From contig JAUMYN010000002.1 of the NCBI GenBank assembly GCA_030528625.1, positions 132,104-172,890 on the forward strand: a stretch of DNA of 40,787 bases. Reading direction: 5' to 3'. Source of the stretch: Candidatus Saccharimonadota bacterium (GTDB taxonomy: Bacteria > Patescibacteriota > Saccharimonadia > Saccharimonadales > Saccharimonadaceae). The translations under genes were made by a program, and so were the position numbers. Under the pieces are notes generated by a model. That model saw nothing but the letters and a program-made list of their open reading frames with translations. It was not told the origin of the DNA and made no database searches. Shown piece by piece: positions 2,616-40,787 of the stretch. Each line of letters starts with the position of its first letter. Position 1 is the stretch's first letter.

Positions 2616-2641
2616 GCCCATGCTATAATACCAGCATGGGC
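2616..2641 (+). promoter_or_regulatory. leaderless-type -10 box inside a perfect 9-bp palindrome spanning the start codon
   Basis: Arms at 2616-2624 and 2633-2641 are perfect inverted repeats (GCCCATGCT / AGCATGGGC) around an 8-nt centre. The -10 box TATAAT (2624-2629) fills the centre and the ATG (2636) lies in the right arm, 6 nt after the -10. This could be an operator that blocks RNA polymerase. Confidence 0.6.
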
Positions 2642-5608
2642 ATTATAAAAAAGCTATTGCTGGCCGCTACTATTAGCTGTCTGTTAGTTGGCTTTGCTGG
2701 ACAGGCCGCCTCTGCTGATATGCTAGACAACAACAAGGCGGCCGCACTGGCCAAGAAATATATCGCCTATCGCGGTATTTTGCGCTGCGCGCATCACGGC
2801 TCCTTCAAGGACTCTGTACCGGGGGGTTACCGCTCAGACCCTGGTTACTATGTCGAACACACCAGCATTGCAATACCCGTCCGGGAGGCGGCTGTTATCT
2901 TGGATGGCGGTGACAACAACTGGGAGACTAAACACCATGGAGAAGGGTTCTATTGTAACTCGTTTATGCACCAGGCCGCTAGTGCCTTAAGCCCAGGCAC
3001 TAGTTTTCATGATTTTATCACCGGGCTAGGTTATAAGCAGGAGGGAGACGGATATAAACTGGCAAATGCTAACGAGGCGGTGAAAAACGCCGTTATTAGT
3101 AAATATCGTGAAACCTCGTGGCCAACCGACAACCCGAAGAATATGCCAGAGCTTGCGTACGGAAACATCTCCTCTCTCGCCTGGCTGCCAGAAGAATCGC
3201 GCTACTGGATAGTCAATCAACATCTCAGCAAGAGGTGCGAGAGCTTCAAGCCAGCGGACGGATTTCCACCCCAGCCATCAGAGTATAGCAACATCTCTAT
3301 ATATCAAGGATCTGGCAACCTGAGCACAGGTCGCTATGTTGATAGGGTGGTCCGCAGAGCGGGCCTCACCACGCCGTGTCCGATTGCAAGCGATGTTGGA
3401 AAGGTGCACCAGGCCGTAGCGCAAAAATACCACCGAGAACAGGCAAATGCCAAGCGGCAACACGCCGCCAACGCCCTGGCTGGCGCTATGTGTAGCTCGC
3501 TGGAGGGCGACGAGAAAGCTAGTTGTGAAAAGAAATACCGCGAGGCCTACGAAGTATGTTACCCCCGAGAATACCAGCCAGGTGTTTCGGATAAGCCAGA
3601 AAATACCTCCTTGTGTATTAGTCAACGAACGGGGGGGGCTCAGCAGAGGATCTTGAGATACTTACGAGAAGCCCAGGACGGAGCCCAAAATATCACCCCC
3701 CCGACAGACGTTTCAGCCACAGTCCCAGATAGCGGCGGCATCGCAGAAAAGCGTACCTGCGGCTCAGAGGTAACCGGGGTTGGTTATCTGTTGTGTCCCG
3801 GCCTTGATACATTAGCAACCGTTTCTGACGGCATATGGAAATCTTTTGAAGGCCTCTTGAAAACCAACCCTCTTAAGGGGCAGTCTGGCGACTACCTTTA
3901 TGAGATGTGGGCTGGGTTTCGAGACCTTGCCAATGCTATTTTGGCCATCGTCTTCCTGGTGATTATCGCCTCGCAGGTCAGCGGTATCGGCATCTCTAAC
4001 TACGGCATCAAAAAGATGATACCTCGAGTTATCATAGCGGCGGTTGCCATCAACGCTTCGTTCATTTTAATGCAGGTAGTGGTTGATTTGGCGAACGTTC
4101 TCGGTAAGACACTGTATGATCTTATCGTCAATGCGGGCGGCTTTAATACCCAGGCGAACCTCGATAATATCGGGCTAACAGGCCTTATTGAAGATATTAT
4201 CTTCCACGGGGGGTTGACTTTTGCGGCTGGCGCAGGAATTGCTGCGGGAATTGCTGCAATTCAGATGCCCGCCGCCCTTATTTTTGTCGCTCTTATCATG
4301 CTACCAGCAGTACCAGGATTTATCGCGGGGATGCTTGCTCTGGCTATTCGCTCCGCCCTCATCCCAGTGATAGCGGTGATCGCACCAATCGCTATAGCGG
4401 CATATGTATTACCAAACACTCAAGGGTTGTTTGATAAGTGGCGAAAGACTACTACGGCGATGCTTTCTTTGTATCCGCTGGCGTCGGTGTACTATGGCGG
4501 GCTCAAGCTAGCGGCCTTGATTATGATCAGCACTGGCAGCAGCGGTATGCGGCTCATCGGCATGGTGGTGCTGATGTGCGGGGCAGCCGTAGTGCTGGTG
4601 CTGGCTGTTAAGGCAAATGCTATTACTGGCAAGATTACTGGGGCTGTGAAGAACGGTCTCGGCAAGCTCACCGCGCCAGTACAAAGCACTCTCAACGAAT
4701 CTTTCGGCCCGGCTGCAAAAGAGGGTATACAGTCCTTCAAATACGGCAGAGATCGCAAGGGTTTGTTTGGAGCCATGCAGAAAGGTATGCGCAGCTTTGA
4801 CCGCTCAAAGCGCGACCGAGCACTACGCAGCGCCATTCTGGAGAATGAACTCTCTCGCCAGCACGCCGAAAGTTTTGTGGCTGATCCGACAGAGGCTGGT
4901 AAGCGGCTCAAAGGTCTGCAAGACGTCCCGGGGGGAGCTGCTTATATCAGGGAGCAAGAGGCAGCGCTGGTTAAGCAACAAGAGGTTGGTTTCCGTGCCA
5001 GTAGCCTAGAAGAGCTGGAGAAGAGTATGGTTGAGGCTATCCAGAAGGGCAACCGCATCGCTGCTCAGGCTATTCAAAATGTTATGTTGTCGCAAGGCGG
5101 CCGCGGCTTAGAGGCCTTTAACAAGTCAGTGATGAAAACTGAGCCGACCGGCGAAATGCGCACCTCCTTGGTGGAGAACCTGGTTTCCAACCACGGCAGC
5201 GCTCTAATGAAGGACTTTGCCACTCGACAGTGGACACAGTCCGGGGAGACAATGGCTGCCGCCCAGGCCGCCTGGACGGGGCCGAACAAGAATACCGATT
5301 CAATCAGCGCCAAAGACTTCTCGGATATGTCGTCAGCCGCCCAGCTGCGAGTATTGGGGGCATCGGTTGGTGATGATGGCAATGTGACTATAGCGGTTGA
5401 CAAAGACGGCAACTATGGCGGTCGCAACCTCGACAATAATGCCCTCCGAGCACTGTTGGATTCTTCAACCGACCTAGGCGAGGGAATTGCCAAAGATTCT
5501 CCTGTTGCTAAGGCACTTCAAAAAGTTGCCGCGCAGCGCGGCATAACAGCTCCTGGCGTCGTTGATGATTCCATATGGCCAAAAAACGAGAACACTTCGC
5601 CCAAGTAA
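2636..5608 (+). CDS. VirB6/TrbL-like polytopic T4SS membrane protein, first paralogue
   Basis: A 990-residue protein with a signal peptide (residues 1-28, cleavage near ASA-D), a large Cys-rich extracellular part to about 400, a membrane block with several long hydrophobic helices at roughly 420-660, and a hydrophilic, helical, Ala/Gln-rich cytoplasmic tail to the end. The membrane block resembles VirB6/TrbL proteins that form the inner-membrane channel of type IV secretion systems. Just before it is a paired-cysteine motif C375-x(4)-TGVGYLL-C387, which recurs in the next gene, so the two are paralogues. The N-terminal region has many more cysteines, suggesting disulfide-rich surface exposure. 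It starts from a predicted leaderless promoter. The family call is by topology and context. Confidence 0.75.
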   Translation: MGIIKKLLLAATISCLLVGFAGQAASADMLDNNKAAALAKKYIAYRGILRCAHHGSFKDSVPGGYRSDPGYYVEHTSIAIPVREAAVILDGGDNNWETKHHGEGFYCNSFMHQAASALSPGTSFHDFITGLGYKQEGDGYKLANANEAVKNAVISKYRETSWPTDNPKNMPELAYGNISSLAWLPEESRYWIVNQHLSKRCESFKPADGFPPQPSEYSNISIYQGSGNLSTGRYVDRVVRRAGLTTPCPIASDVGKVHQAVAQKYHREQANAKRQHAANALAGAMCSSLEGDEKASCEKKYREAYEVCYPREYQPGVSDKPENTSLCISQRTGGAQQRILRYLREAQDGAQNITPPTDVSATVPDSGGIAEKRTCGSEVTGVGYLLCPGLDTLATVSDGIWKSFEGLLKTNPLKGQSGDYLYEMWAGFRDLANAILAIVFLVIIASQVSGIGISNYGIKKMIPRVIIAAVAINASFILMQVVVDLANVLGKTLYDLIVNAGGFNTQANLDNIGLTGLIEDIIFHGGLTFAAGAGIAAGIAAIQMPAALIFVALIMLPAVPGFIAGMLALAIRSALIPVIAVIAPIAIAAYVLPNTQGLFDKWRKTTTAMLSLYPLASVYYGGLKLAALIMISTGSSGMRLIGMVVLMCGAAVVLVLAVKANAITGKITGAVKNGLGKLTAPVQSTLNESFGPAAKEGIQSFKYGRDRKGLFGAMQKGMRSFDRSKRDRALRSAILENELSRQHAESFVADPTEAGKRLKGLQDVPGGAAYIREQEAALVKQQEVGFRASSLEELEKSMVEAIQKGNRIAAQAIQNVMLSQGGRGLEAFNKSVMKTEPTGEMRTSLVENLVSNHGSALMKDFATRQWTQSGETMAAAQAAWTGPNKNTDSISAKDFSDMSSAAQLRVLGASVGDDGNVTIAVDKDGNYGGRNLDNNALRALLDSSTDLGEGIAKDSPVAKALQKVAAQRGITAPGVVDDSIWPKNENTSPK

Positions 5609-5650
5609 TGGCGTAATCCGTTACTAGACAGCCAAAACCAGACACTTTTA

Positions 5651-5690
5651 TTGACTTTTTAGCCCAAAAATGCTACCATAAGGGGGAATG
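5651..5690 (+). promoter_or_regulatory. sigma-70-like promoter close to the second VirB6-like start
   Basis: TTGACT at 5651-5656, a 17-nt spacer and TACCAT at 5674-5679. The ATG at 5688 is 8 nt after the -10, so the leader would be at most about 2 nt. Confidence 0.7.
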
Positions 5691-8186
5691 GAGTGGTTAT
5701 ATGCGAGGCGGCGGCCGGAGTGTCGGCGGCCACATGGTTTGTTGCTGCTGATAGCCGGTCTGCTAGTCAGCCTGTTTGCTGGTCTCTCGCTGTTTTCAAC
5801 CACCGCCTCTGCGGCGCCCGAGGCTATTTGGTCAGGACAGAGCCTGCGCTATGAAGACGCTATCTACAACGAACTGACCGACGCCCGGCAAAAAACCGCC
5901 CTGGGGCGGACGGCCGAGGAACGTGTTTATTCTTATAGTAGGAATACCAATAACCCCAGCGGCATCGCTCAAGAGATACTGACGATTCATTTTCCAGCCG
6001 GTACTACGCCGTCAAGCGCCTCGGAAGCAACCCACACGAGGTATTCTGCCAGCGCTGGCGGCACCTATTCACCGCGGTCATCGTCAACCATTACCATCAA
6101 GGGTACTCACGGCGAAGGAAATCCCGAAGCGTCAAGTTGTGCGGTGACTGGCATTGGCTATTTGGTCTGTCCTATTGTATCGTCTTTAGCCAAGGGGATG
6201 GACAATCTGTATGAATGGCTAACCGTGCTGTTCAAGGCGCCGACGCTAGGTTCGGCAAACGACAATAGCGGCATCAAGCTGGCTTGGGAAATTATGCGCA
6301 ACCTGGCCAATGCCGCCTTTATTGTCGGCTTTTTGATCGTTATTTATTCGCACCTCACCTCAGTGGGGCTGACAAATTATAATATCAAGAAGTTGTTGCC
6401 GCGGCTAATTGTCGCGGCGGTATTGGTGAATACTTCGTTTATTATCTCGCTCTTTGTTGTCGATCTGTCAAATATTGCCGGTACCGAGCTGCACAAAATG
6501 CTGATTGAGGTCAGGGAACAGGTGGCGGCCGGCGAGGCCTTGCAGCAAAGCGGCGGCATCACCTGGGATCAGGTGGCAGCTGGTATTTTGTCCAATGGTG
6601 CGGTGGCGGCAGGGGTTGTCTACGGCAGCCTCAAACTCAGCACTAGTCTGCTGCCGCTGTTTCTTGCGCTACTGGTTGGCATGGTGATGATTCTGATCGT
6701 AGTGTTGGTGATTTTGGCCGCCCGGCAGGCGCTGATTGTTATTTTGGTGATTATCTCGCCGCTGGCCTTTGTGTGTTATCTGCTGCCTGGCACCGAAAAG
6801 TGGTTTGAAAAGTGGCGCAATAGCCTGTTTACCATGCTGATTTTCTTTCCGGCCTTTGCGTTGGTGTTTGGCGGGGCGTCGCTGGCCGCGGCGATTATTA
6901 TGCAAATTCCGGGCAATGCGGTGATGGCAATATTGGGCCTGGGCGTGCAGGTGGCGCCCCTGGCGCTAACGCCGTTGATTTTGAAGCTGAGCGGCGGCGT
7001 ATTGAGTCGGTTTGCTGGCCTCGTCAATGACAAGGCCAAGGGGCCATTCGACCGAGCCAAGAAGTTCAGCATGGACTGGCACCGAAAGAAAGAGAACGAA
7101 CGCCTCACTAAGGACAAGCTCAGCCCGACCGCCCGAGCGCTGCGGGCCTTACGGCGCCGATCGCACAGTTTTACCCAGAGCGTGGAAGATTATCAGAAGA
7201 AAGCCGACAACTCTATGGAGGCGTGGCGGCTGGAGCAGGTGGCGCGTAATGAACGGCGAGCCTCCGAAGAGCTGGCGATGCGCGCTGCCAGTGATCACCT
7301 GGAGGCATCAAAGGGACAGGTCGAGGTGATGCACGCCAATACTCGGGCTGGCTATGCGCCGTTTGGTCTTGATACCAGCGCCACGCGGGGCATCCAGGCC
7401 AGCGCTCGCTCGCTGGCTATCCAGGGGTTGCAACAAGAAGGCGCTAAGCGTATCTCGGCGCATCGACTGGCTACCGAGTTGTCTGAAAATGAGCAGCTAC
7501 GCGATCTGGTTGGTGAGGTAGAAAATCTCTACGACATAAATCATGTAGCTGGCTCGACCCGTGCGCTCGCAGCCGCTAAGAGTGCAGTGAGTGCCCACTA
7601 TGAAGAATCTATCAAGAATGCAACGGCGATTATTAACAGCGCCAATCTTACTAACGCCCAGATAGTTGGTCTAGTCAACGGCATCTCATCCAAGAAGATT
7701 ACGGTTACCGATGATATTCGTATCGCGGCGGCCCGCCAGATTGCCGGCGGCGCCGATGGCGGAGCTATCCAGAACCTGCTCGAAACTGCCCAGTTTAAGG
7801 ATCTGCCTAATGATTTGGCGCAAGAGCTCGGCGAGGCGCTCAATAATAACTCGGCAAAGCCGTTCTGGCTGGGTAGTGCTGAGTGTTCTAATATTAAACA
7901 AAAGACCGTCCTTGAGACAGGTGATGAGTTCATTATAAAAAATATTATCACGTCGCTTCAGCGGGATAAGCTATCAGCTGAAAAGATCGTTAATACTGAT
8001 GCGGTGCAGCTTGCCGAGTTTAAGAAGCTTCTAGAAAAACACGCCTCGGCCGTCCTACCTCAGCTGTCTGCTAAAAATATAGCGGAGCTTAAGAGCTCGC
8101 TGGCTCTGTCGAAAAGCGATCCGCTCTACGCTGGTCGCCTGGGCGAGCGGGCGGATGCAGTGGATGGCCTCCTCAAACTCCTGTAG
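5688..8186 (+). CDS. VirB6/TrbL-like polytopic T4SS membrane protein, second paralogue
   Basis: The 832-residue product has a signal peptide (hydrophobic 17-40, cleavage near ASA-AP), a short extracellular part, then C151-x(2)-TGIGYLV-C161, matching the paired-cysteine motif of the preceding gene. Several membrane helices occupy about 204-440, including NLANAAFIVGFLIVIYSHL and IKKLLPRLIVAAVLVNTSFI, which align with the same positions of the first paralogue. The tail from about 440 is charged and helical, probably coiled coil, and cytoplasmic. Two tandem VirB6-like genes suggest a heteromeric channel or two alternate channels. It has its own promoter rather than reading on only from the gene before. 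Confidence 0.78.
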   Translation: MEWLYARRRPECRRPHGLLLLIAGLLVSLFAGLSLFSTTASAAPEAIWSGQSLRYEDAIYNELTDARQKTALGRTAEERVYSYSRNTNNPSGIAQEILTIHFPAGTTPSSASEATHTRYSASAGGTYSPRSSSTITIKGTHGEGNPEASSCAVTGIGYLVCPIVSSLAKGMDNLYEWLTVLFKAPTLGSANDNSGIKLAWEIMRNLANAAFIVGFLIVIYSHLTSVGLTNYNIKKLLPRLIVAAVLVNTSFIISLFVVDLSNIAGTELHKMLIEVREQVAAGEALQQSGGITWDQVAAGILSNGAVAAGVVYGSLKLSTSLLPLFLALLVGMVMILIVVLVILAARQALIVILVIISPLAFVCYLLPGTEKWFEKWRNSLFTMLIFFPAFALVFGGASLAAAIIMQIPGNAVMAILGLGVQVAPLALTPLILKLSGGVLSRFAGLVNDKAKGPFDRAKKFSMDWHRKKENERLTKDKLSPTARALRALRRRSHSFTQSVEDYQKKADNSMEAWRLEQVARNERRASEELAMRAASDHLEASKGQVEVMHANTRAGYAPFGLDTSATRGIQASARSLAIQGLQQEGAKRISAHRLATELSENEQLRDLVGEVENLYDINHVAGSTRALAAAKSAVSAHYEESIKNATAIINSANLTNAQIVGLVNGISSKKITVTDDIRIAAARQIAGGADGGAIQNLLETAQFKDLPNDLAQELGEALNNNSAKPFWLGSAECSNIKQKTVLETGDEFIIKNIITSLQRDKLSAEKIVNTDAVQLAEFKKLLEKHASAVLPQLSAKNIAELKSSLALSKSDPLYAGRLGERADAVDGLLKLL

Positions 8187-9134: not shown

Positions 9135-9962
9135 ATGCAACCAATGACATCACAACCTATCCAACCTGCGGCCCTGCCGCAACAGCCGCCCGCGAATACG
9201 CCGGCGGGACCTCCTGCTAGCCAGTCAACCCCGGCCGCCCCAAAGCAAAATGCACCGCTCAGCACCCAAAACACCTTGTTGTTTTCTGAGATGCGTGAAA
9301 ATATGATTATCATGAACGACGGTAGTTTTCGGGCGGTGGTGGAATGCCAGTCGATCAATTTTGACCTAATGAGCAGCCGCGAGCGCGAGGGGGTGGAGTT
9401 TAGTTATCAAAACTTCCTTAACTCGCTCTATTTTCCTATTCAAGTACTCGTGCGGTCGCGCCGGGTCGACATCGGGCCCTATCTCGACCGGCTTGTATCT
9501 ATTCGGCGCTCCCAGGATAATATGCTATTGAACGTACTGATGGATGATTATATTAACTTTATCGACGTGCTTGCTCAAGAGGCCAATATTATGGATAAGA
9601 GTTTTTACGTCGTGGTGCCGTATTATCCGGCGGGTGATGTCACGGCCGTCAAGCAGCAGGCTAAGGGGCTGTTTGACAGCTTGTTCGGCGGCAAGAAGGA
9701 GGCAGCGGTAACAAAGATCGACCAAGCCGCCTACGAGAAGGCCAAGGATGAGATTAGGCACCGCATCGATGCGGTAATAGACGGTCTTTATCAGATGGGG
9801 GTGAAATGTTCCCAGCTCACTACCAAGCAGCTGGGCGAGTTGTTCTATAGTTCTTATAATCTGGAAACTGCTGTGCGACAACCTTTGAATCTGGATGCGG
9901 CAGAACTAACTAGCACCTATGTTCGAAAGGGCGCTGGCGAGGCGCCGGGAGTGAGGGGTTAA
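9135..9962 (+). CDS. TraC-like protein resembling a VirB4 N-terminal domain
   Basis: A 275-residue protein with a Pro/Ala-rich start (to about residue 40), then a segment of the kind found at the N-terminus of TraC/VirB4 proteins (SEMRENMIIMNDGSFRAVVE, a SINFDL motif, and YQNFLNSLYFPIQVLVRSRR). It has no Walker motifs. The likely role is a structural partner of the VirB4 ATPase that follows. The stop TAA and the next ATG share one base (TAATG at 9960-9964), so the two are translationally coupled. The upstream GGGGTGGA supports the start at 9135. Confidence 0.75.
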   Translation: MQPMTSQPIQPAALPQQPPANTPAGPPASQSTPAAPKQNAPLSTQNTLLFSEMRENMIIMNDGSFRAVVECQSINFDLMSSREREGVEFSYQNFLNSLYFPIQVLVRSRRVDIGPYLDRLVSIRRSQDNMLLNVLMDDYINFIDVLAQEANIMDKSFYVVVPYYPAGDVTAVKQQAKGLFDSLFGGKKEAAVTKIDQAAYEKAKDEIRHRIDAVIDGLYQMGVKCSQLTTKQLGELFYSSYNLETAVRQPLNLDAAELTSTYVRKGAGEAPGVRG

Positions 9963-11806
9963 TGGCAAAAAAGCTTGATCCTGTCGATATAGCGGCCCAG
10001 CAGCGCGCCAAAGAGCAAGCTGAAGTCGAGCAGGCCTTCTTGACTGGCGTACGCACCTTGCGTGATTTTATTGCACCAAGTAGTATCGAGCTGCAAACCA
10101 GCTATTTCCGCCTCGGCACCAAATACGGCCGCACCATGTACGTCTACGGCTATCCGCGCCAGATTTACACTGGCTGGCTGAGCTCGATTATCAATATTGA
10201 CGAGGTGCTGGACATCAGTATGTTTATTTATCCAGTTGATACTCAGATCGTCCTCAACAATCTACGCAAAAAGGTGACGCAACTAGAGGCGAGTATGAGT
10301 ATCAATGCCGAGAAGGGTCGGGTGCGCGACCCAGGTATGGAGGCGGCCCTGCAAGACGCCGAGGAGCTGCGCGATCAGCTACAAATCGGCGCCGAAAAGT
10401 TTTTCCGCTACGGCTTGTATATTACGCTATACGGCGATAGCCTTGATGAGCTTAATTTTATTCAGCACAAAATCGAGACTATTTTTGGCCAGCAGCTGGT
10501 GTTTTCAAAAGTGGCATCCAGCCAGCAGGAGCAAGGGCTCAATAGCACTATTCCGCAGCTGACTGACAAGTTGCAGGTACGCCGTAATATGAATACTGGT
10601 GCTGTTTCGACGAGCTTTCCATTTACTTCAGCCGACCTCACCGACGGCAAAGGGGTGTTGTACGGCATCAATATGCATAATAACGGCCTGGTGATTTTTG
10701 ACCGCTTCTCTCTCGAAAATGCCAACATGGTGGTATTCGCGAAGTCTGGTGCCGGTAAGTCGTTTACTGTCAAGCTAGAGGCGCTGCGCAGCATGATGAC
10801 GGGCAGTGATATTTTGATCATTGACCCGGAAAACGAGTATCAAAAACTGTGCGACGCTGTGGGCGGCAGTTATATTCGCCTCAGCCTCAATAGCGACACT
10901 CGTATCAATCCGTTTGATCTGCCGCGGGTAATCGACACTGATGAGGCGGATGATGCTCTGCGCGCTAACCTCGTGACGCTGCACGGTCTGCTGCGGCAGA
11001 TGCTTGGCGGCTCGCAACTGGCCGACGGACAGGTGGTAGGCGGACTAACGCCGGCTGAAGAGGCGGATATTGACCAAGCGCTGATCGACACCTATGCCCG
11101 GGTTGGTATTACCTCTGATCCATTGACGCACAATTCTACTCCGCCGACTATCAGCGATCTGTACGATACGTTGCTGCATATGGGCGGTACGGGCCCGCAG
11201 CTCGCTCAGCGGCTGCGTAAGTTTACCTCGGGCACTTTTGCCGGTATCTTTTCACAGCAGTCGAATATTGATATTAACAACAATATGGTGGTGTTTAATA
11301 TTCGCGACCTAGAGGACGAGCTGCGACCGGTGGCGATGTATATTGTGCTCAATCACATCTGGAACATTACGCGCACCGACCAGAAAAAGCGCATGTTAAT
11401 CGTCGATGAGGCCTGGCAGCTGATGAAATATGACGATTCGGCCAATTTCCTGTTCAGTTTGGCTAAGCGAGCCCGTAAATACCAGCTGGGACTGACGACG
11501 ATCACGCAGGATGTGGAGGACTTTATGGGGAGCAAGATGGGCCGGGCGATTGTTGCCAACTCGTCGATGCAGCTCCTGCTCAAGCAGTCGGCGAGCGCGG
11601 TTGATGTTCTGGCTAATGTGTTCAAGCTGACCGAGGAGGAGCAGAAGCGCCTGGCGAATTTTCCGGTGGGGCAGGGGTTGTTTTTTGCCGGACAGAACCA
11701 CGTCCACATTCAAATTCAGGCCAGCGACACCGAATATAATCTCATCAATACCAACCCAATCACCCAGCAGCCGCACACACCAGCCAGCGGCTATGGGGCG
11801 GTGTAG
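9962..11806 (+). CDS. virB4: VirB4/TraC-type T4SS ATPase
   Basis: A 614-residue cytoplasmic ATPase that powers assembly or substrate transfer in type IV secretion. Walker A is AKSGAGKS at residues 260-267 (K266), followed by the DILIIDPENEY motif typical of VirB4. Walker B is RMLIVDEAW with D482-E483, followed by the arginine-rich AKRARKYQLGLTTITQD stretch. The N-terminal 250 residues hold the CagE/TrbE-like domain. Length fits the compact Gram-positive VirB4 group. It is coupled to the preceding gene by a one-base stop/start overlap. No VirD4 coupling protein or VirB11 ATPase is present in the window. Confidence 0.93.
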   Translation: MAKKLDPVDIAAQQRAKEQAEVEQAFLTGVRTLRDFIAPSSIELQTSYFRLGTKYGRTMYVYGYPRQIYTGWLSSIINIDEVLDISMFIYPVDTQIVLNNLRKKVTQLEASMSINAEKGRVRDPGMEAALQDAEELRDQLQIGAEKFFRYGLYITLYGDSLDELNFIQHKIETIFGQQLVFSKVASSQQEQGLNSTIPQLTDKLQVRRNMNTGAVSTSFPFTSADLTDGKGVLYGINMHNNGLVIFDRFSLENANMVVFAKSGAGKSFTVKLEALRSMMTGSDILIIDPENEYQKLCDAVGGSYIRLSLNSDTRINPFDLPRVIDTDEADDALRANLVTLHGLLRQMLGGSQLADGQVVGGLTPAEEADIDQALIDTYARVGITSDPLTHNSTPPTISDLYDTLLHMGGTGPQLAQRLRKFTSGTFAGIFSQQSNIDINNNMVVFNIRDLEDELRPVAMYIVLNHIWNITRTDQKKRMLIVDEAWQLMKYDDSANFLFSLAKRARKYQLGLTTITQDVEDFMGSKMGRAIVANSSMQLLLKQSASAVDVLANVFKLTEEEQKRLANFPVGQGLFFAGQNHVHIQIQASDTEYNLINTNPITQQPHTPASGYGAV

Positions 11807-11821
11807 TATAATAAGGGTATG
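11804..11821 (+). promoter_or_regulatory. -10 box with predicted leaderless start, abutting the virB4 stop
   Basis: TATAAT at 11807-11812 follows the virB4 stop TAG (11804-11806) with no gap. The ATG at 11819 comes 6 nt after the box. Confidence 0.6.
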
Positions 11822-14800
11822 GCTACCGGGACGAAGCAACGACCAGACGAGACGGCTCTCAATCCGGCAGAGAGAGACGCGGCGGTAAAATTATCACCTG
11901 CCGAATTGGCAAAATGGGATCAGATTGAGGCTGGTTTGCGCGATGATATGGCCGCCGATTCTGCCGAACACGAGAGTCTGGCAAGTCGCGAGGGGGGGTT
12001 TGAATTTGTCGGCTCTTCTGCATCAAAAAAACCTGCCAAAAAAACCGAGCGTCTCCTGGCTCAGCTCGTTAAGCGGCGCGGGGTGGCAGCTGGGGGACTG
12101 ACAATCGGCGCATTGATAATTATTGCCATACTCACCCTGATAAATCCCGCTCTTGGTTTACAGCACCTGGCGGAAAATCTGACGCTTACTGGCGACTCCG
12201 GTAATACCGTCATGCAGCGACAACTCTCTAAAGTAATTGGTGCGGCGATTTCTCCGGAAGATTGCAAAGGCTCAAAGTTGTGCAGCAAGATGAATCAGAT
12301 GTCTTATCCGATGCTGCGCCGCCTGGCAAAGGCTGGTATTACGCCGATGAATGCCGATGGACCAATGGAAATTGCGGGCCGCGGTTACGCCAAAGAGCGA
12401 CCTACTAGCTGGCGTATTGAGCGAGGTGATAAAACCATTACCGTAAGCTCCGGTGAGTTTATGACATTTCTGTCCCGTAGCGAAAACCGCGATATCGCCG
12501 CCAAAGTGCTCGGGCGACGCGGTGTCTTAGGCTTAGCGCTGGAGCACAGTTTGTGGAATAGCCGTTATCTCAATAAGAAACTCTTTAGTAAGTTTAAGAT
12601 TGTTCGCAACGGCGGTATCGCTGCTAAAGCTGATGGGAAAGACAAAGCTAATGATCGCATAGAAAAATACCGAAAGAATATCCCGAGCACCGAAAATATC
12701 AACGATTCGGTAGTAAGCAAAGTTAAGTCCAAGATGGAGGGGCATCTCAATAAAATCAAGCGAGCCGGCCTAGCCTATACCGTACCCGCCAGCTCTTGTA
12801 TCGCCGTCAAGGCGCCACGAATAATCGCTGGTGCCTACGCCGCCGCCCAGCTCCTTCCTCTCATGCCGCTTGCATCTGATCTCATCCTATCGCCAGCCTC
12901 TCGAGCTAAGGCCGTCGGGGCGGGGAGTGGCTTTTCAGCGGAGGATATGGAAACGGTTGGTACAATGATGACCAAGAAAGTACCTCGTCCGTCAGACAAG
13001 AAACTCACCGCTTTCGTTGATTCAAAATATTTACAGGCGGCAGCTGGCTTTAATAAAACAAAGCTACGCATCCACGATGATTTCGCCCCAGGCTATGCTG
13101 TGCTAAAAAATAAAGCGTTCCAAGGTATTAGCTCTCTAGAGGACAGCTCAAAGGGTGCCTGTGATATTATCCTCAGTCCAACTGCTATGTACAGTGCGAT
13201 GGCGGTTGATGCCGCGGTAACTGTTGCCGCCTCGGGCATGGGTGTCGGACTCCTCAAGATAGTCGGCAGTTACCTCATTAGCGAGGTGGTGAGCTTCATT
13301 GGGCAACAGGCAGCTGGGGCTATCGCTAAAGCGGCGCTCGCGGCAATTGTTAATACTGATGCTATCAAGCAAGCCGAGGGGGAGACGTTAGGCGATGCGG
13401 TCGGTATTTCAGCTATGGCATTTTTTTCCTCAAGCGCCATGTCGCAGCATTTACCAATCCTGCCAGTAAATAAAGTAAAAGAGTTTGCTAGTCTGCGCGC
13501 AGACTCCGAGCGGTTACAAAGAGAGATGGATATTGCCTCGCTGAGTCCATTTGACACGTCTAGTCGCTATACTTTCCTCGGTAGTATCGCGCACAATACC
13601 GCCCAACTCATGATAACCAGTGGTTTTTACGGCCGACCAAGCGCTGTGTCGGTTCTATCGAGTTTATTTAGGATGCCACTCGCCCTCAGCTCGCCAATAA
13701 CTAAGGCCTCTGACGTCAGTGCAGCAGAAACCTATTGTAGTTATGCCGAAGATTTTGGCATGAAGCCTTCGGTTGACGGACAGGATATTGTGCCGGGTAT
13801 CAATAATGCCGGGTTCGGCTGCCACGGCTCTACTGCCGCCCAAGACGCTATGGAGCCAAGCGAGGTAATCGCTATTGCCGAAGCCGAGGGATGGCTGGAT
13901 AATAGCGTCGCCATCGGCGATGAGGATGACCTGGATGATCTCCTCAGTAAGGGCTTTATTAAAAAAGACACACCGCTAGCGGATTTTATGGAGTCGTGTG
14001 GCGACCCAACAAGCGGTGACCACCTTTACAACGCTGCTTCCTGTATGACGGGGGCTGAGTATACTTCATCAACCACTTCACATAATTCGATAAAGCTTGA
14101 TACTACCTGTGTCACGCGACAGGTTGACGGCGTAACCAAGCAGGTTTGTCCTGCCGACGCACCAAAAGAAGCGGCGGGATCCAGCGTATCCGTCGCCAGT
14201 AGTCGAGCACTAGCCGCAGCACCTGTACTACTTTGGCAATACCAAGTTCATCAGGCGGTGATGGGATTTGCCTGGGATGAATCGGGCAGACAGAGCGCCT
14301 CATCTGCTGCGACGGCAGGTCCGGGTGAGTGGGCGGTCAGTCCTAATCATAGCGGTGAAATGGGCGAGGGTGAGAATAGTGCCGCCTGGGAAAAGTGGAA
14401 AAACGACATGAAGGGTAATGGTAAAAATGAAACCGGTGTACTTAAGCCAATGACGACTAGCTTCCCTCAGGTGATCTGCCCAAGCAGTAATTCGCTCAAT
14501 GCCCACGGCGGCGGTAATCTCTTTCACCCCAACGCTGCCAAGTCCGGCCAGGCGCTCCTAGAGGCCTACCATAACGACCCGGCAAACAAGGGCCGCTATC
14601 TAGTGCCAAGCGCCTGCTTCCGCTCCATTGAGGCGCAGAAAAAAGCCTATGCCGACATGCAGCGTGGCGGCAACCTGGCGGCACCCCCAGGCCGATCCAA
14701 CCACGGCTGGGGTACGGCAATTGATTTTCGCACCTCGTCTAGCCCAACAGGCTTCGAAACATCCATTACCAGCTTTTCCTCGCCAGATTATCTATGGCTC

Positions 14801-14911
14801 AAGAACAATGCATATAAGTATGGCTGGATCAACCCTAAGAAAATGCAGCCTGGTCAGTGCTCTGGTAACGGCTGTGAAGCCTGGCATTTTCAGTATGTGG
14901 GGCCGCTATGA
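11819..14911 (+). CDS. large T4SS-associated membrane protein with C-terminal VanY/M15 peptidase domain
   Basis: The 1030-residue product starts with about 85 charged cytoplasmic residues, a membrane helix at about 89-108, and a long extracellular region with further hydrophobic segments (about 325-360 and 460-510). The last ~130 residues are a D-Ala-D-Ala carboxypeptidase-like (VanY, peptidase M15) domain: S960-N-H962-G-W-G965-T-A-I-D969 fits the SxHxxGxAxD zinc signature, and EAWHF supplies the third ligand H1023. It should cut peptide stems of peptidoglycan, either to let the apparatus through the cell's own wall or to act on a partner's wall. It follows virB4 and overlaps the next hydrolase gene by ATGA. 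Confidence 0.83.
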   Translation: MATGTKQRPDETALNPAERDAAVKLSPAELAKWDQIEAGLRDDMAADSAEHESLASREGGFEFVGSSASKKPAKKTERLLAQLVKRRGVAAGGLTIGALIIIAILTLINPALGLQHLAENLTLTGDSGNTVMQRQLSKVIGAAISPEDCKGSKLCSKMNQMSYPMLRRLAKAGITPMNADGPMEIAGRGYAKERPTSWRIERGDKTITVSSGEFMTFLSRSENRDIAAKVLGRRGVLGLALEHSLWNSRYLNKKLFSKFKIVRNGGIAAKADGKDKANDRIEKYRKNIPSTENINDSVVSKVKSKMEGHLNKIKRAGLAYTVPASSCIAVKAPRIIAGAYAAAQLLPLMPLASDLILSPASRAKAVGAGSGFSAEDMETVGTMMTKKVPRPSDKKLTAFVDSKYLQAAAGFNKTKLRIHDDFAPGYAVLKNKAFQGISSLEDSSKGACDIILSPTAMYSAMAVDAAVTVAASGMGVGLLKIVGSYLISEVVSFIGQQAAGAIAKAALAAIVNTDAIKQAEGETLGDAVGISAMAFFSSSAMSQHLPILPVNKVKEFASLRADSERLQREMDIASLSPFDTSSRYTFLGSIAHNTAQLMITSGFYGRPSAVSVLSSLFRMPLALSSPITKASDVSAAETYCSYAEDFGMKPSVDGQDIVPGINNAGFGCHGSTAAQDAMEPSEVIAIAEAEGWLDNSVAIGDEDDLDDLLSKGFIKKDTPLADFMESCGDPTSGDHLYNAASCMTGAEYTSSTTSHNSIKLDTTCVTRQVDGVTKQVCPADAPKEAAGSSVSVASSRALAAAPVLLWQYQVHQAVMGFAWDESGRQSASSAATAGPGEWAVSPNHSGEMGEGENSAAWEKWKNDMKGNGKNETGVLKPMTTSFPQVICPSSNSLNAHGGGNLFHPNAAKSGQALLEAYHNDPANKGRYLVPSACFRSIEAQKKAYADMQRGGNLAAPPGRSNHGWGTAIDFRTSSSPTGFETSITSFSSPDYLWLKNNAYKYGWINPKKMQPGQCSGNGCEAWHFQYVGPL

Positions 14912-37166: not shown

Positions 37167-38074
37167 GAGATATTATGCTGCGCGGGAGGACAGCGCCGAA
37201 ACAGCGAGGCGGGCTGCGAGTACCAGCTCGTGGAGCTGCTCGCCCGGTCGTTCGGCCGCAATCGATACCGCCACGCCGCTCGTCTGAACTGCTGGAGCTG
37301 CGTCGCCTCTATAAGGTGGCAGCTAAGGCGGACATGCTGCGCCGGGCAGTGGAGGCTCGGCGTCCTCGGCAGCGGCATTTTTGGGCGTCGTGGCGGGGGC
37401 TCCGCAGCGCTCTGCCGCAAGCCCTGGCGGCTATAGTGGTGCTGGCGGCGGGCTATGTGGTGGTCGATGTTTGGCTGACGAATCGGCGTATTGAGCAGCA
37501 GGCCGCTGGCAATCAAGCAATTGTGGCGGCTGCCACGACGACTGATGCCACACCAGAACAGCGGCAGGAGGCCGAGGGGCGGGATGAGCGTCCTCAACCG
37601 CACGCTCTCGATAATTACCGTGTCGAAGCATCTTTGCCGCGCGCTATCTTTATTGATAAACTGAACGTCAAAGCCCGCACCCTGCCTATGTCGGTCAATC
37701 CTGACGGCAGCATGCAGGCGCCGATCAATATCGATGATGCGGGGTGGTACACTGGCAGTGTCAAACCAGGCCAAAAGGGCGCCGCTATCATTGTAGCCCA
37801 TGCTTCTGGCCCGACGCGCAGAGGTCTATTCGCCTATCTGGATACGCTGAAGGCGGGCGATCAGCTGGCAGTAGAGCGAGGTGACGGCAGTCGGCTGAAC
37901 TATCAGGTGCTGAGCAAGAAAGTGTTGCCGCTTGATAAGGTCGATATGGAGGAGATGTTTCGGGTACAAGAAGGGGACGAGGGGCTGAATCTGATGACCT
38001 GTGCCGGCAAATGGCTGGCTGAGCGAAAGACCTTTGAACAGCGCGTCATGGTATTTACTAAGAGGTTGCCATAA
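37163..38074 (+). CDS. sortase family transpeptidase
   Basis: A 303-residue protein with a long basic cytoplasmic start, one membrane helix (about 85-105) and a C-terminal sortase domain. The catalytic residues are H213 (VAHASG), C280 (LMTCAG) and R294 (FEQRVMVF). Sortases cut a C-terminal sorting motif and attach the protein to the wall or to other proteins. No LPxTG-like substrate is encoded in the window. The class is not certain (D/E-like by the TC motif). It is coupled to the downstream regulator by TAATG. Confidence 0.93.
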   Translation: MRDIMLRGRTAPKQRGGLRVPARGAARPVVRPQSIPPRRSSELLELRRLYKVAAKADMLRRAVEARRPRQRHFWASWRGLRSALPQALAAIVVLAAGYVVVDVWLTNRRIEQQAAGNQAIVAAATTTDATPEQRQEAEGRDERPQPHALDNYRVEASLPRAIFIDKLNVKARTLPMSVNPDGSMQAPINIDDAGWYTGSVKPGQKGAAIIVAHASGPTRRGLFAYLDTLKAGDQLAVERGDGSRLNYQVLSKKVLPLDKVDMEEMFRVQEGDEGLNLMTCAGKWLAERKTFEQRVMVFTKRLP

Positions 38075-38412
38075 TGCTGACCAAAAAACAAAAGATCCTA
38101 CTAGATACTATTGGCGCCTTTATTAAGGAGCATGGTTACAGTCCGACGCTGCGCGAACTGATGCGGCTGTTGCGGTATCAGTCGGTGTCAACGGTCGCCA
38201 AGCATATCGACAATCTGGTGGCGGCCGGCTATCTCTACAAGCAAGAGGGGGCGGTGCGTTCTTTGTCGTTGACAACACCAGCGCAGGCGGCCCAGCCGTG
38301 GCGGCTGGCGATTGAGCAGGCAATTACCCGGCGGGAGGCGAGCGGGACAGCAGAGGCGCTAGAGCAGGCAGTGGTCTTGCGCCAGGCGCTCGCTATTTTG
38401 TCCGGGGACTAG
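38074..38412 (+). CDS. LexA-like DNA-binding protein lacking the S24 protease domain
   Basis: A 112-residue protein whose first ~65 residues match the LexA winged helix: LTKKQKILLDTIGAFIKEHG, YSPTLRELMRLL and SVSTVAKHIDNLVAAGYL. LexA is about 200 residues, with a Ser-Lys self-cleaving domain that is absent here; the remaining 45 residues are an Ala-rich helical tail. It therefore cannot be inactivated by RecA-stimulated cleavage in the usual way. It is coupled to the sortase by a one-base overlap, which hints at control of surface genes rather than SOS, though this is inference. Confidence 0.85.
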   Translation: MLTKKQKILLDTIGAFIKEHGYSPTLRELMRLLRYQSVSTVAKHIDNLVAAGYLYKQEGAVRSLSLTTPAQAAQPWRLAIEQAITRREASGTAEALEQAVVLRQALAILSGD

Positions 38413-39588: not shown

Positions 39589-39606
39589 TGCTATAATGAG
39601 GATATG
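39589..39606 (+). promoter_or_regulatory. extended -10 box with predicted leaderless start for dnaG
   Basis: TG-C-TATAAT (box 39592-39597), then 6 nt and the ATG at 39604. No good -35 is seen. Confidence 0.62.
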
Positions 39607-40787
39607 CAGGATGCCAAAGAAGAAGTGCGGGCGCGGCTGGCCATTGAAGATGTGATTGGCGAGTACGTCCAGTTAAAGCGCGCGGGGCGAAATCTTAAGG
39701 GGCTCAGTCCGTTTACTGATGAGCGGACGCCGAGTTTTATGGTCAGTCCCGAAAAGCAGATTTGGCATGATTTTTCCTCGGGCAAGGGTGGCGATGTGTT
39801 TTCGTTTGTGATGTTGGTGGAGGGAATGGATTTTAAGCAGGCGCTCGAGCATTTGGCGCGCAAAGCTGGTGTGGATATGAGCTTGTTTTCACGAGGCGAT
39901 GGCCGAACGGCCAAGCGGCGCGCCCGGGCGCGTGAAGCCTTGGGTTTGGCGGCGCGGTTTTATCAGCAAGTATTGGTGCGTACACCAGAGGCGCTTAGCT
40001 ATGTCAGTCAGCGGCGGGGTCTGAGCCGGCAGACGGTGCAGGAGTTTATGATTGGTTATGCGCCGACAGACGGACAGTCGCTGGTAGCGGCACTGGAAAA
40101 ACGTGGTTTTTCACGGCAGGAATTGGCCGATGCGGGGCTAACCAATCGGTTTGGCGGCGATTTATATCGCGGGCGGATGGTGGTGGCGCTGAGCGATGCG
40201 AGTGGTGAGGTGATTGGCTTTACGGGGCGGATTATTCATGAGGATCCGAAGGCGCCGAAATACCTCAACACGCCGCAGACGCTGCTGTTTGATAAGTCGC
40301 GGCATATTTTTGGTTTGTTTCAGGCCAAAGAAGCGATTCGTAGGCTGGACGAGGCAGTGATTGTTGAGGGAAACTTGGATGTGGTGAGTAGTCATCAGGC
40401 TGGTGTAAAGCAGGTGGTGGCGACAGCCGGTACGGCGATGACTGAACAGCACCTCAAGACGCTCAGCCGGCTGGCGGGGCGAGTGAAATTGGCATTTGAC
40501 GGCGATAAGGCGGGGCTGAGCGCCACGGAGCGGGCGATTGGCTTAGCGCAAACGGTTGGCGTGGAGTTGGAGGTGGTGAACCTGCCGGACGGCGCGAAGG
40601 ACCCGGATGAACTGATTCAATCCCAAGGCGTTGAGGCATGGCAGGCGGCCATTGCTCAGTCGGTGCCGGCGGTGCAGTGGGTGATTGACCAGTATTCCCG
40701 GCGGGAAGATGTACAGACTGCTGAGGGCAAGCGCCGTTTTTCAACCGCCGCCCTGACGCTGATTCGTGGCTTGAAAGACCCAGTGGA
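39604..40787 (+). CDS. dnaG: DNA primase, 3' end beyond window; zinc-ligand positions replaced
   Basis: The frame runs from the ATG at 39604 to the window edge (394 codons) without a stop. Residues 1-95 align with the CHC2 zinc-binding domain (GLSPFTDERTPSF, WHDFSSGKGGDVFSFVM), but the Cys, His, Cys, Cys ligand positions read S35, T38, D56 and S59. The RNA polymerase core follows normally, with the TOPRIM motifs EGNLDV (usual EGYMDV) and FDGDKAG, plus KYLNTPQT. It makes RNA primers at the replication fork. The length seen fits the first two domains; the helicase-binding end is missing only because the window stops. Confidence 0.95.
   Translation, partial: MQDAKEEVRARLAIEDVIGEYVQLKRAGRNLKGLSPFTDERTPSFMVSPEKQIWHDFSSGKGGDVFSFVMLVEGMDFKQALEHLARKAGVDMSLFSRGDGRTAKRRARAREALGLAARFYQQVLVRTPEALSYVSQRRGLSRQTVQEFMIGYAPTDGQSLVAALEKRGFSRQELADAGLTNRFGGDLYRGRMVVALSDASGEVIGFTGRIIHEDPKAPKYLNTPQTLLFDKSRHIFGLFQAKEAIRRLDEAVIVEGNLDVVSSHQAGVKQVVATAGTAMTEQHLKTLSRLAGRVKLAFDGDKAGLSATERAIGLAQTVGVELEVVNLPDGAKDPDELIQSQGVEAWQAAIAQSVPAVQWVIDQYSRREDVQTAEGKRRFSTAALTLIRGLKDPV

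Follow-up and report, generated by a model that had tools for sequence, protein, structure and literature searches.

A DnaG primase of Saccharimonadales whose CHC2 domain appears to be kept without its zinc ligands

The zinc ribbon of DnaG primases has been described as conserved and essential for reading priming sites (PMC6163395, PMC10218098), and its zinc ligands are called highly conserved in reviews (PMC6163395). The window, a stretch of 40 787 nucleotides from a Candidatus Saccharimonadota genome, ends inside a dnaG gene in which all four ligand positions are occupied by other residues. This locus raises the question of whether the domain is decaying, holds a metal by other means, or works without one.

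Zinc ligand positions of the window DnaG

The open reading frame begins with ATG at 39604 and was matched by the whole-protein DnaG model TIGR01391 with 370 bits (cut-off 283.6). From the N-terminus, CHC2 is followed by DNAG_N, then by TOPRIM and finally by the beginning of the DnaB-binding domain. The features, in window coordinates, are as follows.

39604..40787, + strand: dnaG (DNA primase), truncated behind residue 394 where the contig stops; contig C4 of this genome opens with the remainder
39616..39882, + strand: CHC2 / zinc-ribbon domain without zinc ligands, residues 5-93 (PF01807, 95.4 bits, cut-off 24.9)
39706..39708, + strand: Ser35 codon, at the first zinc Cys position (E. coli C40), from sequence; Ser in 100% of the compared zinc-less DnaGs
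39715..39717, + strand: Thr38 codon, at the zinc His position (E. coli H43), from sequence; T, S, G, N, K, R, Q, A or V in relatives
39769..39771, + strand: Asp56 codon, at the third ligand Cys position (E. coli C61), from sequence; Asp nearly order-wide
39778..39780, + strand: Ser59 codon, at the fourth ligand Cys position (E. coli C64), from sequence; Ser by TCN and AGY codons in relatives
39958..40329, + strand: DNAG_N, N-terminal domain of the catalytic core, residues 119-242 (PF08275, 98.8 bits)
40357..40617, + strand: TOPRIM catalytic domain, residues 252-338 (PF13155, 73.5 bits)
40675..40785, + strand: start of the DnaB-helicase-binding region, residues 358-394 (PF10410, 24.7 bits, cut-off 20.6)

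The stretch LSPFTDERTPSFMVSPEKQIWHDFSSGKGGDVFSF of the protein aligned with the CHC2 domain, and the zinc-domain structure 1d0q matched the window DnaG with E=2.7e-28. The earlier note had read S35, T38, D56 and S59 at the ligand positions of an otherwise well aligned CHC2 domain, and this was borne out. Of the features that define a CHC2 zinc finger, the ribbon fold and the spacing were present, and the Cys-His-Cys-Cys ligands were absent. Residues 1-394 were found to contain no cysteine. Takeover of the zinc by a new Cys or His elsewhere was rejected, because none was found in the CHC2 domain.

Contig C2 ends at 172890, inside dnaG, and this cut is what could be said for a pseudogene, a sequencing error or a misassembly. 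Nevertheless, the last 55 bases of C2 were identical to the first 55 bases of C4, and the joined C2 and C4 reading frame ran through 577 aa with no stop, compared with 578 aa in a same-genus relative. The C-terminal 200 aa carried by C4 showed 59% identity to a same-genus relative. The S-T-D-S set was shared by 9/9 genomes of the genus, whose codons at the ligand sites show synonymous changes, and no readable member of the order had CHCC. Local mutation, sequencing or assembly error and a pseudogene were therefore rejected on the shared residues of the relatives and the contig join, and we give these explanations practically no chance. The claim that the gene is otherwise intact held as well, as the join yields an uninterrupted frame.

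The TOPRIM catalytic residues E255, D299 and D301 are retained, in columns that are invariant in the DnaG alignment. The gene following dnaG on C4 was judged from its sequence to be sigma-70-like (DDSVRLYLREIGKIPLLS). DnaG was the only CHC2 protein in the window's genome, and a search for Prim-Pol, the one AEP family covered, found none there. A second, zinc-bearing primase was thus rejected, none being detected by CHC2 or Prim-Pol. Since it is the sole CHC2 protein in a genome with no Prim-Pol found, has a sigma-70-like neighbour and keeps its catalytic residues, the window DnaG must prime; it serves a bacterium with a reduced genome as its housekeeping replicative primase.

Elsewhere in the window, a 112-aa protein at 38074-38412 carries only the LexA DNA-binding domain, the peptidase domain being absent. 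Very long open reading frames at 2636-8186 and 11819-14911 flank a TraG/VirB4-like ATPase (9962-11806) in a type IV secretion-like cluster; those of 990 aa and 832 aa were without a Pfam match, and the one of 1030 aa carried a C-terminal VanY peptidase.

Distribution in the order, class and phylum

The readable DnaGs from other genera of the family and from other families of the order all showed S-x-D-[S/A/T], with the exception of genus g27, and x was T, S, G, N, K, A or Q across the order. The spacing of the CHC2 domain was unchanged over hundreds of sequences. Site 3 was Cys in g27 and in many other zinc-less lineages. Within its S-x-D-S order, g27 (L011, L085) reads S-T-C-T, a natural double mutant in which sites 3 and 4 have changed together.

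In the same class, families f9, f10, f175, f177, f178 and f179 had intact CHCC, and the site was absent from f11 (SKD[S/T]), f12 (SRDS), f174 (SNDA), f176 (SHDA) and f180 (SHDT). The histidine is retained in f176 and f180, as expected of intermediates. DnaG of the remaining phylum was mostly CHCC. Further zinc-less forms were found in f49 (SRDS/SRDA), in f36 and f133 (STCT), and in one member of f20 (SKCT), a family that also has CHCC members. Named Patescibacteria and Parcubacteria DnaGs grouped among sequences of the same phylum, which on this basis appears to be Patescibacteria.

In a tree of the catalytic domain only, the f11/f12/f174/f176/f180 group fell outside the CHCC families and the order; L154 and L163 are long branches whose own placement is unsure. 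Forcing one zinc-less clade within the class cost 23.9 log units (p-AU 0.017), and a single loss in the class was rejected on this test. Two losses within the class are likely, and are the best reading of these sequences. A single loss after which all four ligands were regained is formally conceivable but unlikely. On a tree of 205 sequences, the minimum number of changes between the zinc and zinc-less states was 16, an approximate count from a quick search under one model with a sample enriched for zinc-less sequences by design. Parsimony on an unrooted tree does not separate loss from gain; CHCC being the common state and the occurrence of histidine-keeping intermediates point to loss.

Zinc-less CHC2 domains beyond the phylum

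A scan was made with a degenerate nucleotide pattern encoding S-P-F-x-x-E-[K/R]-T-P-S-F, which is unable to match Cys at the first site. In viral contigs, 98 stretches matched, and nearly all of those read proved to be CHC2 domains in which the ligand set was S-x-[D/C]-[S/A/T] or a near variant of it. At least 119 stretches matched in named genomes, mainly of Alphaproteobacteria (Pelagibacteraceae, Bradyrhizobium, Methylobacterium, Caulobacteraceae and others); Corynebacterium, Chlorobium, Empedobacter, Nevskia, Calditrichaeota, other Bacteroidetes and Patescibacteria were also among the matches listed. When 17 pattern-bearing named genomes were searched whole, the zinc-less CHC2 was the sole strong CHC2 match in most, and a few had another CHC2 copy or a weak second match. 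In Algoriphagus (G773), the pattern had matched an accessory protein, and the main DnaG was CHCC. Many intact DnaGs were also found in Alphaproteobacteria around Bradyrhizobium, where the best-scoring 30 were sampled with a bias toward intact ones. An oddity specific to CPR bacteria was rejected by the zinc-less DnaGs of named Alphaproteobacteria, Corynebacterium, Chlorobium, Bacteroidota and phages.

Residue pattern, selection and predicted fold

In a set of 305 DnaGs, selected in part for Ser at site 1 and including phylum and class samples that were not selected by ligand, the ligand set was either CHCC or S-x-[D/C]-[S/T/A/G] and nothing else. Cys at site 1 or site 4 with the other lost was seen in 0/305. 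The residue between sites 3 and 4 shifted with the ligands, being Gly in 90% of zinc DnaGs and Ser in 94% of zinc-less ones. Asp at site 3 was paired with Ser at site 4 in 125/135 cases, and Cys at site 3 with Thr (53) or Ser (25). At P36, K41, P43, S44, F57, G63 and F68 the same preferences were observed in zinc and zinc-less DnaGs. Residue 55, which adjoins site 3, was His in 94% of the order, and it is His, Lys or Tyr in zinc DnaGs as well. Independent lineages arrive at the same replacement letters.

The NG86 dN/dS values within the family were 0.054 for the ribbon, 0.064 for the whole CHC2 domain and 0.134 for the catalytic domain, obtained from 14, 17 and 9 usable pairs of 55, respectively, many pairs being saturated at synonymous sites. 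Ser59 was constant while its codon alternated between TCN and AGY, and synonymous changes at the ligand sites were found within the genus. These substitution patterns indicate that the zinc-less ribbon domain is under strong purifying selection.

An AF2 model, for which the input alignment comprised 58 zinc-less DnaGs only, had a mean pLDDT of 93.6, with 94-97 for residues 21-70. Foldseek returned 2au3 as the top match, and the Geobacillus zinc domain 1d0q was matched with a TM of 0.88 and an rmsd of 1.5 Å. The structure modelling proposed in the earlier note thus yielded a standard ribbon fold that is predicted to match the zinc-bound domain; AF2 ignores metals and learned such domains zinc-bound, and the model backs the fold, not its stability. 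Single-sequence folding of the isolated domain, with no alignment, gave a mean pLDDT of 56 and about 35 in the ribbon, which was not predicted. The view that the domain is kept without its metal rather than decaying gains support from the order-wide absence of the ligands, the low dN/dS of the ribbon, the codon switching at Ser59 and the modelled fold, all of which suggest retention.

Proposed mechanism and alternatives

We consider it probable that the CHC2 ribbon of the window DnaG folds and works metal-free, keeping its contact with the template and having a Ser/Asp/Ser turn network in place of the metal. The former zinc knuckles SPF and DFSS would be held in position by hydrogen bonds from Ser35, Asp56 and Ser58/Ser59, and the unchanged hydrophobic core would also hold both turns. 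Contacts to the template and to the primer start may be made by the KTPSF loop, the GGD turn, K51 and the conserved W54-H55 pair, and priming would follow the course known from other DnaGs. Elsewhere, lineages that retain Cys at site 3, most often together with Thr at site 4, might have come to the same outcome. Two reports concern other primases: bulky ribbon side chains of T4 gp61 stack on template bases (PMC10359460), and the trinucleotide preference of C. difficile DnaG is set by the residue adjoining the third ligand (PMC5204125).

The site might instead still bind Mg, Ca or zinc through Asp56, Ser35, Ser59 and His55, or through backbone or water. Within the order Asp56 and Ser35 hardly vary, as is largely true of His55, and zinc sites of the CysAspHis2 type occur in the Ros family (PMC9779718). 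But site 2 is free and accepts even Lys, Arg and Gly, site 3 swaps between Asp and Cys, and site 4 among Ser, Thr, Ala and Gly; the domain has gained no new conserved Cys or His, and the variation at residue 55 is shared with zinc DnaGs. We therefore regard a metal held by other atoms as unlikely. Still less probable is that the ribbon is vestigial and that template recognition has shifted to the catalytic domain or a partner. TWINKLE offers a precedent, being a remnant of a zinc domain without priming (PMC7231222); however, the ribbon of the window's family has a lower dN/dS than the catalytic core, its base-contacting columns are kept, and its spacing is unaltered. Metal-free function of the ribbon thus remains our preferred reading, and the alternative considered below concerns the cause of the loss.

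Other zinc sites lost in the order

Several other proteins of the window's genome (G000) have lost zinc cysteines.

G000 C3:282231-286076 (loci L471 and L472 region): RpoC, 1281 aa, 4 cysteines, both zinc sites absent
G000 C3:350450-351070 (locus L474): RecR, C4 zinc finger lost, with C, T, S and Y at the ligand positions (TCPVTFALIDESEALSPLYAD)
G000 C3:315045-315170: ribosomal protein L36, cysteine-free
G000 C3:422417-424885: TopA, C-terminal repeats without zinc cysteines

Zn1 of the order's RpoC reads INPHDSKLKGVRSREAAVDKNGE. It was lost in all readable sampled members of the order (6 besides the window's), and Zn2 was lost in 6/6 full-length RpoCs of the order, the window's included, one of which retains 2/4 cysteines (comparison loci L515-L520 and L542-L555). 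The RecR zinc finger was lost in all readable sampled order members (7 besides the window's), and it was intact in all 20 other sampled genomes of the class and phylum where RecR was found (L487-L513). In the sampled sister families of the class, the RpoC and RecR zinc sites were all intact, zinc-less-DnaG families included. It appears, then, that in the deep clade the DnaG zinc was lost alone with RpoC and RecR kept, and that in the order all three were lost. RpoC Zn2 was also lost in f49 (G303).

A lineage-wide saving of zinc or cysteine may have driven the loss, an account that gives a cause and says nothing about priming. It would fit the absence of both RpoC zinc sites and of the RecR finger from the sampled order members, the cysteine-free L36 and TopA C-terminus, and a Cys content of 0.75% of residues (ORFs of at least 300 aa, window's genome). 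But CxxC motifs are kept in UvrA, PriA, RadA, DnaJ, MetRS, Fpg and an NrdR-like ORF (UvrA and the NrdR-like ORF being named from their sequence), and whole-genome zinc avoidance as the full cause was rejected for this reason. Moreover, f11, f12, f174, f176 and f180 combine a zinc-less DnaG with intact RecR and RpoC, so the loss in DnaG did not await a general purge. We hold this cause to be possible, while leaning somewhat against it.

Relation to known systems

The window DnaG shares with bacterial DnaG (TIGR01391; 2au3, 1d0q) the domain order, the catalytic residues, the ribbon fold and spacing, and an adjacent sigma-70-like gene; it differs in that all four ligands are replaced and its N-terminal 394 residues are cysteine-free. 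In the literature searched, which left most subscription journals outside, no described zinc-less DnaG or zinc-less Patescibacteria RpoC was found.

Other nucleic-acid-binding zinc domains have dispensed with zinc. Ml4 and Ml5, Ros/MucR family proteins of Mesorhizobium loti, fold and bind DNA zinc-free through hydrogen bonds and a larger core; their fold and function are unrelated to those of DnaG, and their zinc-free state was measured, whereas that of the window DnaG is inferred (PMC9779718). In E. coli topoisomerase I, the zinc-ribbon-like D8/D9 and Topo_C_Rpt repeats are without zinc cysteines and keep DNA binding. Zinc-less topoisomerase I repeats are reported in Alphaproteobacteria, Actinobacteria and Bacteroidetes, partly the same groups as zinc-less DnaG, but these are tandem C-terminal repeats and not the start-site reader of a primase (PMC9369019). 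TWINKLE, a mitochondrial relative of T7 gp4 and a phage-like helicase, likewise has a primase-type zinc domain with lost cysteines. There, ligand loss went with loss of priming, which POLRMT took over, whereas the window DnaG is the only primase found in its genome (PMC7231222).

Zinc in the universal enzyme DnaG looks replaceable. A broader proposition, which we judge to be evenly balanced, is that in a whole bacterial order the core of replication, transcription and recombination (DnaG, both RpoC sites, RecR) operates with none of the structural zinc supposed to be universal there. The same proposition holds that in DnaG the metal is interchangeable with one small residue set, S-x-D-S or S-x-C-T, at which bacteria and phages have arrived in parallel on many occasions. 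Because the ligands have disappeared repeatedly in nature while the other parts of the domain stayed the same, the role of the metal, holding two turns, can be told apart from that of the domain, reading DNA, and many paired natural comparisons are available for testing this. The loss is also relevant to inhibitors that target the zinc domain of primases, and since RpoC and RecR of the order lost their zinc in parallel, the reason why zinc was given up there can be put to the test.

Two minor observations concern other CHC2 proteins. Some genomes of the class have short accessory CHC2 proteins with intact CHCC, perhaps on mobile elements; two were read (L171 in G733 and L175 in G115), and two more (G574:C4:24744 and G345:C3:139756) are known as matches only. 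Among phage primase genes (L176-L273), zinc-less CHC2 was common, and several forms were unlike the cellular ones, for example WKDHGTGEGGD and YDFGDTSKKGD.
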